A program made the position numbers and the translations under genes. A stretch of 64,000 nt of DNA. Origin: Actinobacteria bacterium HGW-Actinobacteria-4 (lineage in GTDB: Bacteria; Actinomycetota; Actinomycetes; Actinomycetales; Demequinaceae). The stretch is from the NCBI GenBank assembly GCA_002841315.1, contig PHEW01000002.1, positions 1 through 64,000 of the forward strand, in the 5' to 3' direction. Below, piece by piece: positions 2,250 through 16,315 of this stretch (positions are counted from its first letter, which is position 1; the number at the start of each line of letters is the position of its first letter). Below the pieces are notes generated by a model, which made no database searches, had not been told where the DNA came from, and saw nothing but the letters and a program-made list of their open reading frames with translations.

Positions 2250-3908
2250 CTAGAGCCCCCGAGAGAACTCCGTGACCAGCGCCGGCACAGCGGCATCGAA
2301 CCCGGAGATGTCCAGCATCCCGGCATCGTTCGGGTCCGCGATGGAGAACTTCGAAGCCAGCGTGGCAAGCACGATCAGCTTCGCGTCGATCCCCATCTCC
2401 GCGCGGTACTTCGCGAGCGCCTGGTGCGGGTGCATAGCCCCTGCCCAGGTCTCGTTGTCGGTGATCACCACAAAGGTGTCCACCTCGAGGCCACGCTCTG
2501 CCGCGTACAGCATCGGCAGCGAGCAGTCCGTGGGACCAAAAGGAAGGTCAGAGACCTCCTGAATGGCCGCATCGAGCCGCATGCGCGGAGTGATCGCCAG
2601 CTGAGTCAGCGCGGCAGCAGCACCAGACCGACCCACCGGACGCACACGCCGCGCTCCGGGAGGGCGATACACCTGCACGCCACCCGTGAACGCCACCACG
2701 TGCGTCATCGGCTCCGTCGCAGCAAGCACCAGCGCCAGCCCCGCCGACGCCTCACGCGGAGTCAGCGGCACCCCAGCCACCCGGGTGAAGGTCATCGAAC
2801 CGGACACGTCCAGCGCGATCAGCGTGCGCTTGCCTGCGGGCTCCACCGTGCCAAAGCTCCGGTAAAACGCCTCATCAAGCGCGTCGACGATGCGCGGGTT
2901 GGGTTCCCACGTTGACTTCCCTTCCATCGAGTGGCCCTGCGCATACGTCCGCAACGCCACCAACACGTTCAGCGGGTGAATGCGCGCCTTGCGGAGCGCC
3001 TCCACATCCACCAACCGTGCTGCGATCATCTCCGTTGCCTCGGACATCGGCTCAAGCACGCCGATGCGCGTGAGGCGCGGCAGCTGACGGATCAGCGCAC
3101 CCAGGGGTACGTTGCCTTCGAGCAGCGCCTCCCAGACCTCGCGGTCGTTCAGCGCTTCCGTAGGCACCATCTCCCAGGTCAGGCCGTGCTCGCGGATCAG
3201 GCCAGGCAATTCAGACGCCGACGCAAAACGCGCCGCCTCGAATCCCTGCACGATGCCAGGCGCTTCACCCGCGTCTCCACGCAGGATCCACTCGCCAAGT
3301 CCCGTGAAGCCAGGCTCCACCAACCGCGGGTGCGCCTTGCGGAACACGTCGCGGTGCGTCCAGCCGTCACGCTGGCGGTACTTGACTGCCTGGTAGGCCA
3401 CCTGGTCAACCGACTTCTCGGTGTACCAAGCCGCTACCGCACGCGCGAGCGCACGGCCCCAGCCACGGAACCCCTGCACGTAGGTGAGGAATCCGAACAG
3501 CGCCGTTGCGGTGCGCGCCACCTTGGGCAGCTGCGCAAGCGCGTAGGCGCGGTCTTCCACTTCACCGAACGATGCCGCGATCGCCAAGGCGAACAGCGCA
3601 GGGTCCTGCTTGGGGGCACGGCCCGCCACGGAGGTCTCAACGATCACGTCCACGAGCTCACGGTGCTGAGCGGACTCAGCGACGCGAATCACCGCCTTGG
3701 CGTTGTCCTTGGTCAGCTGCGCGCCCGAGGCATAGAAGCCCGTGTCCGAACCCAGGATCAGGAAGCGCTTGACACGTTCGAGGTCCGAGATCACGTACAC
3801 AAAGCCACCAGCGTGGTTACGCTTCTGGCCGTCGGCCGCCTTGAGCGACTGAGGGGTAGCCGCACGACCCTTGCGAATCATGAAGCCCTTGAGGTTGATG
3901 TTGGTCAT
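2250..3908 (-). CDS. rsr: TROVE-domain Ro60 orthologue (Rsr), with C-terminal vWA/MIDAS domain
   Basis: 552 aa; GGFVYVISDLERVKRFLILGSDTGFYASGAQLTKDNAKAVI (TROVE N-terminus), KRTLIALDVSGSMTF (MIDAS DxSGS); RBS aaaggaag before ATG. Confidence 0.93.
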   Translation of the reverse strand: MTNINLKGFMIRKGRAATPQSLKAADGQKRNHAGGFVYVISDLERVKRFLILGSDTGFYASGAQLTKDNAKAVIRVAESAQHRELVDVIVETSVAGRAPKQDPALFALAIAASFGEVEDRAYALAQLPKVARTATALFGFLTYVQGFRGWGRALARAVAAWYTEKSVDQVAYQAVKYRQRDGWTHRDVFRKAHPRLVEPGFTGLGEWILRGDAGEAPGIVQGFEAARFASASELPGLIREHGLTWEMVPTEALNDREVWEALLEGNVPLGALIRQLPRLTRIGVLEPMSEATEMIAARLVDVEALRKARIHPLNVLVALRTYAQGHSMEGKSTWEPNPRIVDALDEAFYRSFGTVEPAGKRTLIALDVSGSMTFTRVAGVPLTPREASAGLALVLAATEPMTHVVAFTGGVQVYRPPGARRVRPVGRSGAAAALTQLAITPRMRLDAAIQEVSDLPFGPTDCSLPMLYAAERGLEVDTFVVITDNETWAGAMHPHQALAKYRAEMGIDAKLIVLATLASKFSIADPNDAGMLDISGFDAAVPALVTEFSRGL

Positions 3909-3961: not shown

Positions 3962-4085
3962 GTGGACGAGCATGTGACGGACTCGGAGCCGCACGCTCTC
4001 CACTGAGCTACCTCACCTGGGTGAGGGCGGGAGTCGAACCCGCGCACTGCGATCCTGATAACCGAGCTTCCTGCGGCTCGTCCAC
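3962..4085 (-). ncRNA. Y RNA candidate C: circularly permuted tRNA-like RNA
   Basis: Ends pair over 10 bp (GTGGACGAGC/GCTCGTCCAC); CGGTTATC motif; T-arm GCGGG-TTCGACT-CCCGC, then acceptor hairpin CCTCAC-CCAG-GTGAGG, then D-arm TAGCTC-AGTGGA-GAGC; next to rsr. Confidence 0.85.
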
Positions 4086-4092
4086 AACTGAA

Positions 4093-4279
4093 GTGCAGCA
4101 TCGGCCGTAGTAGACAGGCGAACATGGGGTGAGGGTCGGAGCGGCCTTGCGGCCTTCTGCTCTGCCAACTGAGCTACCGGGGCGCTAGCGCCCCGAGCGG
4201 GACTCGAACCCGCGACCTGACACGGGATAGGTGATAACCGACGTCTCTTCGGTTCGCCCTTCTACGGACGATGCTGCAC
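4093..4279 (-). ncRNA. Y RNA candidate B: circularly permuted tRNA-like RNA
   Basis: Ends pair GTGCAGCATCG-t-CCGTAG-aag-GGCGAAC with GTTCGCC-tgtcta-CTACGG-c-CGATGCTGCAC; CGGTTATC motif; T-arm GCGGG-TTCGAGT-CCCGC, acceptor hairpin CGGGGCG-CTAG-CGCCCCG, D-arm GGTAGCTC-AGTTGGCA-GAGC. Confidence 0.87.
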
Positions 4280-4412
4280 ACGGCTTGGGAGCGAACATGA
4301 GGCGAGGATCGGAACCAAGTCCAAAGACCCGGTGCGGAACTTGAATCCGCATACGAGCAGTGCTCGCGTTTACCAGATAACCGATGTCTCTTCGGTTCGC
4401 TCTTTTAGCCGT
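4280..4412 (-). ncRNA. Y RNA candidate A: divergent member with T-arm but no clear D-arm
   Basis: Ends pair ACGGCT-aaaa-GAGCGAAC with GTTCGCTC-cca-AGCCGT; CGGTTATC motif; T-arm GCGGA-TTCAAGT-TCCGC followed by hairpin CCGGGTC-TTTG-GACTTGG. Confidence 0.75.
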
Positions 4413-7445: not shown

Positions 7446-8504
7446 TCAAGCGGGTGGCGCATCGCTTGGTGCAGTGACGATCTTTGCGCCCTTGGAACGG
7501 TTGCAACGCCAGCAGAGTGTCTGAAGGTTCTCGGGACTACTTATCCCACCCTTCGAGACTGGTGTGATGTGATCGACCTCAAGCAAGAGATGAGGCTCTG
7601 CCTGCACCGAGATCCCACACGTGAGACACGTGAAGTCGTCGCGAGTCTTGATTTCGGTCCGCAGCCGGTTGGTCATGAGAGCACGTTGACCGGCCGCGGA
7701 CTTTGCCCAACGAATCTTGTCCACGAGCGTTGCGGAAAGTGCTTCGAGTGTGGGGGTGTTCAGGTCGATTGTCGTGGTCTGGCCACTGTTTCCACCCGCT
7801 GACGTGTACTGGAATTTGTACTGCGGGTAGGGAACATGCACTGGAGACAGTTGCACTCCAACTTGCCTCCAAAACTCGGCGGCATAGCGAGTGAGAATGA
7901 ACTTCGGCGGACTAAACGTCGCCGCGATTGCGGCCTCGCGCTGTTGCACATTCGCTACAGCTTCCTCGAGCCTCGCTATGCTGTCTGCCACCCGCTGGAC
8001 GTCACTCAGTGTGTCTTTGTCGGCTTTGATCGAGAAGTACTTCATCAGGTACTTAATTGGGTCGGTGCTAGCGTTGCGCACGACCTGCAGCGAGGCATTG
8101 TGGACATGCGGCGCGTACTCAGCGACGTTCCTGTCGCGGCTGTTATTCCACGCAGATGTGTTCTCGAACGAGGCTAGGTGGGCATACTGCCCGGTAGCGG
8201 AGCTCCCAAGTTCAAACGTTCCTTGTGACCGAATGTCGGCCAGATAGTTCACGACATCGTTGTGCTCCCGGATTACTCCCTCGACCTCCGAACGAAGGTT
8301 TCGGAACTCCTCCGAGCCAAAGTAACGATCCTTGCGGACCTTCCAAACAATCGGGTTCGCAATGAGGACGGCCGCAATGGCGAGAAGCGTAACGCCACCA
8401 TTACCCGTCGCACTCCCCAGTAGGAAAGGGGCTCCGATCAAGGCGACCCAGAACAGTGACCTTGGCATGAAGATACCCCCTCGTGCACTATGACGATCAG
8501 TCAA
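7446..8504 (-). CDS. HNH endonuclease domain protein with N-terminal transmembrane segments
   Basis: N-terminus LFWVALIGAPFLLGSATGNGGVTLLAIAAVLIA; C-terminus RDDFTCLTCGISVQAEPHLLLEVDHITPVSKGGISSPENLQTLCWRCNRSKG (HNH with CxxC pairs). Confidence 0.85.
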   Translation of the reverse strand: MTDRHSARGGIFMPRSLFWVALIGAPFLLGSATGNGGVTLLAIAAVLIANPIVWKVRKDRYFGSEEFRNLRSEVEGVIREHNDVVNYLADIRSQGTFELGSSATGQYAHLASFENTSAWNNSRDRNVAEYAPHVHNASLQVVRNASTDPIKYLMKYFSIKADKDTLSDVQRVADSIARLEEAVANVQQREAAIAATFSPPKFILTRYAAEFWRQVGVQLSPVHVPYPQYKFQYTSAGGNSGQTTTIDLNTPTLEALSATLVDKIRWAKSAAGQRALMTNRLRTEIKTRDDFTCLTCGISVQAEPHLLLEVDHITPVSKGGISSPENLQTLCWRCNRSKGAKIVTAPSDAPPA

Positions 8505-8982: not shown

Positions 8983-11148
8983 CTAAGTGCCAGGCACTCC
9001 GAACACACTCTTGAAGATCTCTCGAAGTTCGATCTCGACCTCTCCTGCATCATCACCGAGGCGGTTTCGCAACTGTTCCTGTGTCGAGCAACCCCGTGTG
9101 AATTCGAGAGCGCCAGCAACTTTGTCTCGTGGATGTCGCGAGCCACCGTAGTAGGTCTCAATTGAGCCGCGTGACAAGACGTACACCCTAGACTCCCTCA
9201 ACTTCGAAATGAGTTCATCTCGGAGGCCCCGCACCTCACCGACGGCACTCCCTAGAGCCTCAAGCCGCTCAGACTTGCGTGAGTAGGCGAAGAATTCCTC
9301 GACAGCACGCTCGAAGTTTTGACGGGCTTCATCGGAATTGTCAAGGGCTTCGCGTGCGCGCTTAACAGCCTCCCAGAGTGCCCTCGCATCTCCGCTTCTA
9401 GCCATGCCCTTCGCCTCTGCCTCCGTGAGCTGAATCTCCCCGTCGGACGGAAGCGACGCATCAAGTTTCGCGAGCAACTTCGTTCGCAACTCACCAACCT
9501 CTTTGGTGGGATCGAGCTTCTCAAAACCGTTGAGCAGTACATCTAGGTCAGCCACCACATGGACCGGCATCTTGAACTTGTCGAAGAACAGACGATAGCT
9601 AGCGATGTTGCCCTTGCCATCGATACTCGCGAAATCGATGTTCTGCTCAACTGGGTCCCAAGCGTCTCCGCCGAGGAGTCTCGCCACGTGCTTGAGCACT
9701 AAGACGTCGCTGTGGCCTTCGACGAGCACCACCTCTTTCGCGAAGAACCCGATGTTGTTGTTTTCGTGACAGATGATCTCCAGTGCCTTCTTCTCCGCAA
9801 GATCGTCGACCCTCACCGGGTCCACGATCGTCTGAGGAGGGAGCGAGTCCTCTGATGGGCCCTTGCGAAACTTGATGAACGATCGAGTGGCGTCGGCGTC
9901 GAAAAACAACGGCGAATGCGTGGACACAAGTACCAAGTGCTCCCTCGCAAACTCTCTCAGCGCTCGAAACAACTGCATCTGCGCCCGCGGATAGAGGTAG
10001 AGCTCGGGCTCCTCGAACAGCAACCAGTAGCGCGGCGCATCGCGCGGTGCGTCGCGCTTCTCGATCCCGCCTCCTCGGAGCGAGGTATAGGTCCTGAGGA
10101 TTGCGAAGAGTACAGCCCGCTTGAGACCGTCACCCTTGCCGGTCACAGGGCCTTCGTACCCGTCGTCGGCGGATATCTCTGCGCCCGCGAGGATGGTCTT
10201 CATCTTCGGAACGGGCACTTCGAGTTTCAGGTCGACTTCGGGGAAACTCTCACGGAGGAAATTATTGATGGTCTTCTCGACGGACCGGACTTGGTCAAGC
10301 CTGTCGTCCACGACCACTCCCGACGAGGGATCCGTCACACGACTCAACTGACGCTGAATTTGCTTGAACCGATCCTCAATGTCCTCGAACTCCTCTTGCA
10401 CTTCTTCGAGAAGGATCCCGAGGAGTTTCCCGAAGGTTGCGGAGTCTGTCGTCTTCACCTCATCAGCGAGGTCCTTCACGGCGGGGATATAGATCGGTTC
10501 AGGCAAGAGGCCCTTGAGTCCATTCTCGATCCCAGTTGCAAGTGGGCCGTCCCGAACCACCAGCTCTTCATCGGGCAGTGCCGCCACCAACATGGCTAAC
10601 GCCTCGACGACTTTAGTCTGCGTCGGCTCTGGCGGTAGATGCGAGTCCAAGTCGGGGATCAGATCGATCACAGTCTTCCGCAACTCGGCCTTCTGCTTGC
10701 CCTTCATGTGTGGCCGGAGATTCTCCACCATCCAGACGTCATTCTTTGGACCGCGCCTCTCAGCGTTCAACTCAGACTTCACTGAGTCGCCATCGAGAGT
10801 GATGGTTCTTACCAACGTCAAGCACCCATCGACCACATCGTTCGCTACGCTATTTCGGTGGGCCTCCGCGAGTCTCTCGATGTCCTGCTCCCCGATATTC
10901 TCGATCTTTAGGGCGATTCGAACTGGCACCGTCTTGTCATAGAAGTCATCGGCGGTTGCCTTGCGCGCTCCTGAACCCGGGATCAACAAGAGCAGTGCGT
11001 GTAGCGCCGATGACTTACCCGAGTTGTTCTCGCCGATGAGGCACCCGAAGTTCGACAACGGCATTTCAACGTCGCGGAGACCCCTGAAGTTCTTGATGTG
11101 CAGAGAGGTGAAGGACATGCCTTCCGATTCGTGTTGTTCGCTCGTCAT
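8983..11148 (-). CDS. OLD-family ATP-dependent endonuclease (AAA ATPase + TOPRIM)
   Basis: 721 aa; LHIKNFRGLRDVEMPLSNFGCLIGENNSGKSSALHALLLLIP (Walker A), LLFEEPELYLYPRAQMQLFRAL (Walker B), VVLVEGHSDVLVLKHVARLLG...VVADLDV (TOPRIM). Confidence 0.9.
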   Translation of the reverse strand: MTSEQHESEGMSFTSLHIKNFRGLRDVEMPLSNFGCLIGENNSGKSSALHALLLLIPGSGARKATADDFYDKTVPVRIALKIENIGEQDIERLAEAHRNSVANDVVDGCLTLVRTITLDGDSVKSELNAERRGPKNDVWMVENLRPHMKGKQKAELRKTVIDLIPDLDSHLPPEPTQTKVVEALAMLVAALPDEELVVRDGPLATGIENGLKGLLPEPIYIPAVKDLADEVKTTDSATFGKLLGILLEEVQEEFEDIEDRFKQIQRQLSRVTDPSSGVVVDDRLDQVRSVEKTINNFLRESFPEVDLKLEVPVPKMKTILAGAEISADDGYEGPVTGKGDGLKRAVLFAILRTYTSLRGGGIEKRDAPRDAPRYWLLFEEPELYLYPRAQMQLFRALREFAREHLVLVSTHSPLFFDADATRSFIKFRKGPSEDSLPPQTIVDPVRVDDLAEKKALEIICHENNNIGFFAKEVVLVEGHSDVLVLKHVARLLGGDAWDPVEQNIDFASIDGKGNIASYRLFFDKFKMPVHVVADLDVLLNGFEKLDPTKEVGELRTKLLAKLDASLPSDGEIQLTEAEAKGMARSGDARALWEAVKRAREALDNSDEARQNFERAVEEFFAYSRKSERLEALGSAVGEVRGLRDELISKLRESRVYVLSRGSIETYYGGSRHPRDKVAGALEFTRGCSTQEQLRNRLGDDAGEVEIELREIFKSVFGVPGT

Positions 11149-14797: not shown

Positions 14798-16315
<1,518 letters not shown>

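Follow-up and report, generated by a model that had tools for sequence, protein, structure and literature searches.

The minus strand of the 64,000-nt stretch of DNA analysed here (the window, always meaning the whole stretch) carries, at positions 4279 to 4093, an RNA element in which the arms of a tRNA follow one another in circularly permuted order. This element, designated B, raises the questions of which RNA family it belongs to, how much of a tRNA it retains and what a tRNA that has been opened and closed in this way could be used for. B is the second of three RNA elements (A, B and C) that run along the minus strand from 4402 to 3962 and lead into a gene for the protein Ro60 (Rsr), read in the same direction from 3908 to 2250; some 50 nt separate element C from the start of its coding sequence. 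The features of the locus, all on the minus strand, are given below.

4289-4402, minus strand: element A, a Y RNA with a T-arm-like hairpin (4350-4334) and an acceptor-like hairpin (4333-4314), without a D-arm (fold, sequence)
4093-4279, minus strand: element B, probable YrlA-type Y RNA, whole hairpin including the terminal helix (fold z -5.3; Rfam YrlA 38.5 bits; covariance model R1 73.5 bits)
4238-4279, minus strand: 5' strand of the terminal helix of B, with outer stems, GGGCGAAC (4259-4252), the CGAAG internal-loop strand and GUCGG (4242-4238) (MFE pairing)
4221-4233, minus strand: anticodon-arm-like hairpin of B, CAC-CUAUCCC-GUG (4233-4221), aligned to the homolog model without non-standard pairs
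4197-4213, minus strand: T-arm of B, GCGGG-UUCGAGU-CCCGC (4213-4197) (sequence, descriptor, model R1)
4177-4196, minus strand: acceptor-stem hairpin of B, UCGGGGC-GCUAGC-GCCCCGG, closed, without CCA (sequence; acceptor pairs covary in homologs)
4159-4176, minus strand: UA (4176-4175) and D-arm of B, GCUC-AGUUGGCA-GAGC (4174-4159) (sequence, descriptor, model R1)
4143-4154, minus strand: hairpin GGCC-GCAA-GGCC of B, directly 3' of the D-arm (MFE)
4093-4139, minus strand: 3' strand of the terminal helix of B, with CCGAC (4139-4135), the ACCCCAU internal-loop strand, GUUCGCC (4123-4117) and outer stems (MFE; homolog helix statistics)
3962-4085, minus strand: element C, second YrlA-type Y RNA, with T-arm (4043-4027), acceptor hairpin (4026-4011) and D-arm (4008-3995) (fold; Rfam YrlA 33.4 bits; R1 45.4 bits)
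2250-3908, minus strand: Ro60/Rsr gene downstream of A, B and C, 552 aa, TROVE RNA-binding ring and vWA domain (Pfam PF05731, E 1e-43; PF25045, E 3e-57)

Anatomy of element B and its neighbours

The sequence-only reading of this DNA had proposed a T-arm, a closed acceptor hairpin and a D-arm in permuted order on the minus strand, and all of the pieces that it named are present. Of the whole window, only B and C match a descriptor composed of a 5-bp T-stem with a UUCRANY loop, an adjacent acceptor hairpin and a 4-bp D-stem; first-order shuffled windows contain 0.05 matches each on average. The three hairpins, predicted to form on folding, all appear in the MFE structure obtained with RNAfold (-92.2 kcal/mol, z -5.3, with 0 of 200 shuffles equally stable), inside a long terminal helix in which 4279-4238 is paired with 4139-4093. 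In tRNA numbering, the acceptor hairpin has a 7-bp stem (GCCCCGG/UCGGGGC) and a 6-nt loop (GCUAGC). This closure makes a 3' CCA end impossible in B, just as that reading had argued. A contiguous tRNA gene with an open acceptor end is rejected for B: ARAGORN finds 0 canonical tRNA genes in the window, and the Rfam tRNA model scores no higher than 19.6 bits, in a match that spans elements B and C.

One pairing put forward in the same reading is not borne out. GTG..GGTC, before the T-arm, was thought to pair with GACC..CAC, after the D-arm, as a stand-in for the anticodon stem. It is absent from the MFE structure, and the corresponding AGGUC/GACC comparison in homologs (five nt before the T-arm against the 3' side) gives 24.7%, vs 21.5% in re-dealt strands. 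GACC is instead part of the inner Y-RNA helix GUCGG/CCGAC, while GUG closes the local hairpin CAC-CUAUCCC-GUG in the slot of an anticodon arm. This hairpin, with its 3-bp stem, 7-nt loop and U33, has C37 and C38 instead of a purine at 37, and the arm is weak in B itself because of a competing ACCU/AGGU pairing at its site in the MFE. The sequence-only reading had missed this anticodon-arm-like hairpin before the T-arm, which is well developed in homologs, as well as the adjoining Ro60 gene as a partner. Hairpins resembling GGCC-GCAA-GGCC also follow the D-arm in some homologs (loci L040, L138 and L176, for example).

Element C has no separate anticodon arm but a short closing stem in its place, and resembles the Rfam consensus form. 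Element A, which gives no match to the covariance model R1, shares the Ro60-helix sequence of B (GCGAACCGAAGAGAC..UCGGUUAUC..CCGA..CAUGUUCGC). Phage Ro60 loci (L014:1035-1230 and L021:1365-1575) contain additional Y RNAs that have this Ro60 helix but, like element A, a simple tip or one with a T-arm only.

Kinship with YrlA and origin of the locus

At a permissive threshold, the best Rfam family for B is YrlA, Y RNA-like (RF02553), and the match covers the T-arm, the acceptor hairpin and the D-arm. Salmonella YrlA (PDB 6CU1) shares with B the T-arm, the closed acceptor hairpin, the UA and the D-arm in the same permuted order, the long terminal helix and an adjoining Ro60 gene, in agreement with the kinship to the Salmonella module suggested earlier from the sequence. 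The circular permutation of a tRNA in YrlA-type RNA is already published and is not new here: once a circular permutation is allowed for, the bacterial Y RNA structure 6CU1 can be superposed on tRNAs (PMC11472068). YrlA has been reviewed as containing D, T and acceptor-like arms, as being modified by DusA and TruB, and together with a Ro60-Y RNA-PNPase machine (PMC8394870). B and most of its actinobacterial and phage homologs differ from YrlA in having an extra hairpin in the anticodon-arm slot, which in the Rfam consensus is occupied by a short closing stem.

The scores for YrlA (B, 38.5 bits, E 6e-7; C, 33.4 bits, E 2e-5) lie below the RF02553 gathering score of 69 bits, which is a curation cut-off rather than a biological feature. 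Since phage and actinobacterial homologs adjoining Ro60 genes likewise reach only 25-47 bits, this cut-off excludes the whole branch. B has an adjoining Ro60 ortholog, 5' and 3' ends in a long stem and the order T-arm, acceptor-like arm, D-arm. With its anatomy, covariation, gene neighbourhood and kinship established by observation, we regard B as very probably a bacterial Y RNA of the YrlA type, belonging to a Ro60 (Rsr) ribonucleoprotein module that was probably acquired from phage. The low Rfam scores, the atypical anticodon loop (C37, C38) and the competing local hairpin of the MFE weigh against this assignment.

The homologs were collected through Ro60. Searches with tblastn found the protein in 346 phage records, and scans with an alignment as query yielded 80 loci from viruses and 80 from genomes; a single-protein query against genome contigs gave no match, whereas the alignment query did find loci. 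Phages of Microbacterium, Gordonia and Mycobacterium, and Actinomycetota genomes as well, have the same kind of Y RNA array upstream of Ro60. The permuted module is present in 128 of 187 loci, a set in which a few duplicates and some junctions of tRNA arrays remain. Junctions of tandem tRNA genes are the real source of the descriptor matches at L086, L163, L164 and L186, and the statistics were therefore restricted to modules with a GGUUAYC-type motif upstream, leaving 133 unique modules.

Across 122 modules, 91% of the cells in the canonical 7-bp acceptor stem are paired, vs 35-54% in controls, with 4-64 both-side changes per pair. An alignment of 52 modules, with the window sequences left out, shows compensatory changes in 16 of 19 pairs, and 98.4% of its cells pair, vs 30-48% when slid. 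Its modules were chosen by gap length and then hand-thinned (which removed near duplicates as well as some of the modules that lack the extra hairpin), and its helix-1 figure of 96.8% is thus a selected one. The covariance model R1, built from this alignment and hence from no window sequence, matches B with 73.5 bits (E 4e-17) and C with 45.4 bits. In 89% of homologs the outer terminal helix is 8 bp or longer (40% for strands taken from different loci), and the inner Y stem UCGG/CCGA is present in 79% (34% in the control). The T- and D-loops are near-invariant and close to the consensus, and together with the strong covariation this bears out the view that they are under selection. In some modules, such as those at L014:1277, L039:1831 and L167:2329, the closed acceptor loop holds an NCCA directly after the 3' strand of the acceptor, which looks as if the 3' end of a tRNA had been joined to its own 5' end.

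Other known systems resemble the locus in part. The strand CCGAAG..GGUUAUC (4252-4233 in the window, and in homologs) may resemble the 5' strand in the vertebrate RNAs Y1 and Y4; a review holds that the Y RNAs of bacteria and vertebrates are not homologous (PMC4726728). The Deinococcus radiodurans Y RNA of the Ro60-Y RNA-PNPase complex (RYPER) shares with B the Ro60-binding stem (predicted in B), the tRNA-like tip and the adjoining Ro60 ortholog. Its PNPase-binding region consists of two hairpins, one of them T-arm-like (PMC6181284). PNPase is the partner there. Closest to the window by Ro60 clade are phage Ro-like loci (Microbacterium phage Cece, Gordonia phage Cashline, mycobacteriophages), in which a Ro60 gene likewise has upstream Y RNAs. 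The arrays of Microbacterium phages and of an IMG/VR contig (L021) have the same helix as the window (CGARCCGAAGAG..UCGGUUAUC..CCGA..CAUGUUCG). The window copy differs from these loci in lying in a bacterial chromosome contig, and the Y RNA elements differ in the tip. At one phage locus, that of Gordonia phage Sixama, a tmRNA-like RNA (L022:3474-3895; 88 bits, Rfam) lies between the Ro60 gene and tRNA genes and is missing from the deposited annotation.

Ro60 of the window is 53% identical to Ro-like proteins of Microbacterium phages and 60% identical to IMG/VR contigs. In a quick tree it falls into a supported set of nine rows (support 95), whose other members, the window's own copy excepted, are viral, Microbacterium phages among them. 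A search of 199 genomes of relatives found Ro60 in eight, the window's own included, and among the 20 same-genus genomes listed it occurs in none besides the window's own. The locus lies 2.2 kb from the contig end, and the nearest copies of two flanking genes stand apart in relatives from the genus. It is likely, though not proven, that the Ro60/Y RNA locus is a phage-derived island. A few kb from Ro60, an OLD-family nuclease (8983-11148, minus strand; PADLOC Old, 289 bits) and an HNH protein (7446-8504, minus strand) form an accessory, possibly defence-related island beside the core gene guaB (14798-16306).

The anticodon arm in the homologs

In the homologs, the T-arm is preceded by a self-contained anticodon arm with a 3-bp stem, a 7-nt loop, U33 and a near-random triplet. 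Among 93 modules defined by a spacing of 20-22 nt between GGUUAYC and the T-arm, and not selected for a hairpin, the full 3-bp stem is present in 76, U33 in 78 and a purine at 37 in 81, while positions 34-36 are near random. About 35 different anticodon triplets are found, and position 37 obeys the 36/37 rule of tRNAs: G37 occurs almost only after G36 (17/18), as in real tRNAs (chi-square p 5e-8, relatedness ignored). In four of the modules (L032, L047, L067 and L134), ARAGORN by itself calls a tRNA that has the anticodon in question.

The triplet changes much faster than its surroundings. Between near-identical modules of an enlarged set, positions 34-36 differ in 46-66% of pairs, vs 9.4% per site elsewhere, although these 50 pairs, drawn from a small number of clusters, are not independent of one another. 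U33 differs in 0 pairs, partly by construction, since only modules with U33 were compared. G36 and G37 changed together in 13 pairs, G36 alone in 0 and G37 alone in 2. In Cellulomonas-like modules the anticodon stem is fixed (CCA/UGG) as the loop varies at 34-38, so that whole arms are not being swapped, and several loci have two modules with different triplets. Exact matches to real tRNA loops of the same loci account for 25 of 49 distinct loops; re-dealing the triplets among frames gives an expectation of 16.9 (max 24).

Because of these statistics for the stem, U33, the 36/37 rule and real loops, most members of the branch, as far as can be judged from sequence, contain a complete permuted tRNA with its opening between the D-arm and the anticodon arm; its anticodon loop is under selection, and its triplet changes fast. 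An anticodon arm with a variable triplet is undescribed in the Rfam consensus and in the literature consulted, a scope that ends short of the original YrlA papers, and may be a new feature for YrlA. Methylobacteriaceae Y RNAs (L168:2143, L177:1876 and L181:1813) apparently have a different permutation point, inside the D-loop, with GGUAGAGC and an anticodon-arm-like hairpin before the T-arm and AAGCUCA or UAGCUCA after the acceptor hairpin.

Possible roles of the tRNA-like tip

In the role that we consider most likely, Ro60 would hold the long terminal helix, the Ro60-binding part presumably being this helix with its CGAAG/CCAU internal loop and the UCGGUUAUC..CCGA inner stem. The tip, a circularly permuted tRNA (anticodon arm, variable loop, T-arm, closed acceptor, D-arm), would recruit a partner recognising tRNA or RNA, by analogy with the known YrlA system. 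As the permuted order is opened between the D-arm and the anticodon arm and the acceptor is closed, the tip folds like a tRNA and can never be charged. Since the tip has been kept as a faithful tRNA, anticodon loop included, in most homologs, at least one partner probably reads the loop; a modification enzyme such as TrmD or an anticodon nuclease would fit the anticodon statistics.

The second of these candidates leads to an alternative that can hold together with the role just described, although we consider it rather unlikely. An unchargeable tip with a swappable loop could be a decoy or bait, that is, a substitute substrate or inhibitor for anticodon nucleases of host defence, toxins or a colicin-like kind; in a further and similarly unlikely part of this explanation, Ro60 would stabilise or handle the tip and the triplet would change in step with nuclease targets. 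The rapid change of 34-36 beside a constant U33, the joint changes of G36 and G37, the excess of exact real-tRNA loops and the loci with two different triplets would all fit, as would the presence of Ro60 and Y RNA in RNA-repair operons and the suggestion that YrlA is a competitive inhibitor of an anticodon nuclease (PMC7790460). The same study found Salmonella YrlA, by description without an anticodon arm, uncut by the SOS anticodon nuclease. In addition, the loop of B is degenerate, C is without the arm, no nuclease partner emerged from the analysis and the near-identical pairs are not independent. The tip could also be a remnant of capture, if Y RNA genes had repeatedly taken up tRNA, for example at a tandem tRNA gene junction, and had inherited an anticodon loop with no present role. 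This we find doubtful. NCCA in 6 of 75 acceptor loops (expected 1.4; max 5 in 500 shuffles) speaks for it and host tandem tRNA gene junctions resemble the module weakly (39.6 and 31.7 bits), but the stem that stays fixed while 34-38 varies, and the covariation and invariant U33, which indicate ongoing selection, argue against it, and none of the recovered host tRNAs matches B across all arms. Descent of B from one host tRNA was rejected: its acceptor is like that of tRNA-Thr(GGU) (3' strand 7/7, 5' strand 6/7), but its T-arm is not (12/17), and it has a different anticodon.

Two further explanations can be set aside with much more confidence. Permuted tRNA genes of Cyanidioschyzon and Thermoproteota have the 3' part of the tRNA before the 5' part, keep a CCA and an intervening segment and are processed to functional tRNAs. 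The arm order and the near-canonical tRNA core of B are similar, and it is nevertheless highly improbable that B is such a red-algal or archaeal kind of gene, circularised and processed into a working tRNA. Both of its acceptor strands belong to a single hairpin, whose 6-nt loop (GCUAGC) has no NCCA, the break lies between the D-arm and the anticodon arm, and the ends run into the Y-RNA helix, not into a splice motif. The required intervening sequence with CCA and splice motif is absent, which already contradicts this candidate. A chance or DNA-level inverted repeat resembling tRNA arms has only the GC richness in its favour and is practically negligible, being refuted by the descriptor counts (two matches found against the shuffled mean) and by the compensatory changes in homologs.

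Ro60 and Y RNAs range from phages to humans. A large bacterial and phage branch of Y RNAs may, as a tentative possibility that its sequences raise, consist of permuted tRNAs with a hypervariable triplet, held by Ro60 as uncharged decoys or baits, with the B locus as a phage-derived member. The kept anticodon arm and a fast-changing triplet that obeys the 36/37 rule point to a partner that reads the anticodon loop, which makes the partner question directly testable. Through this arm, phage Ro60 may be linked to tRNA-cleaving defence.
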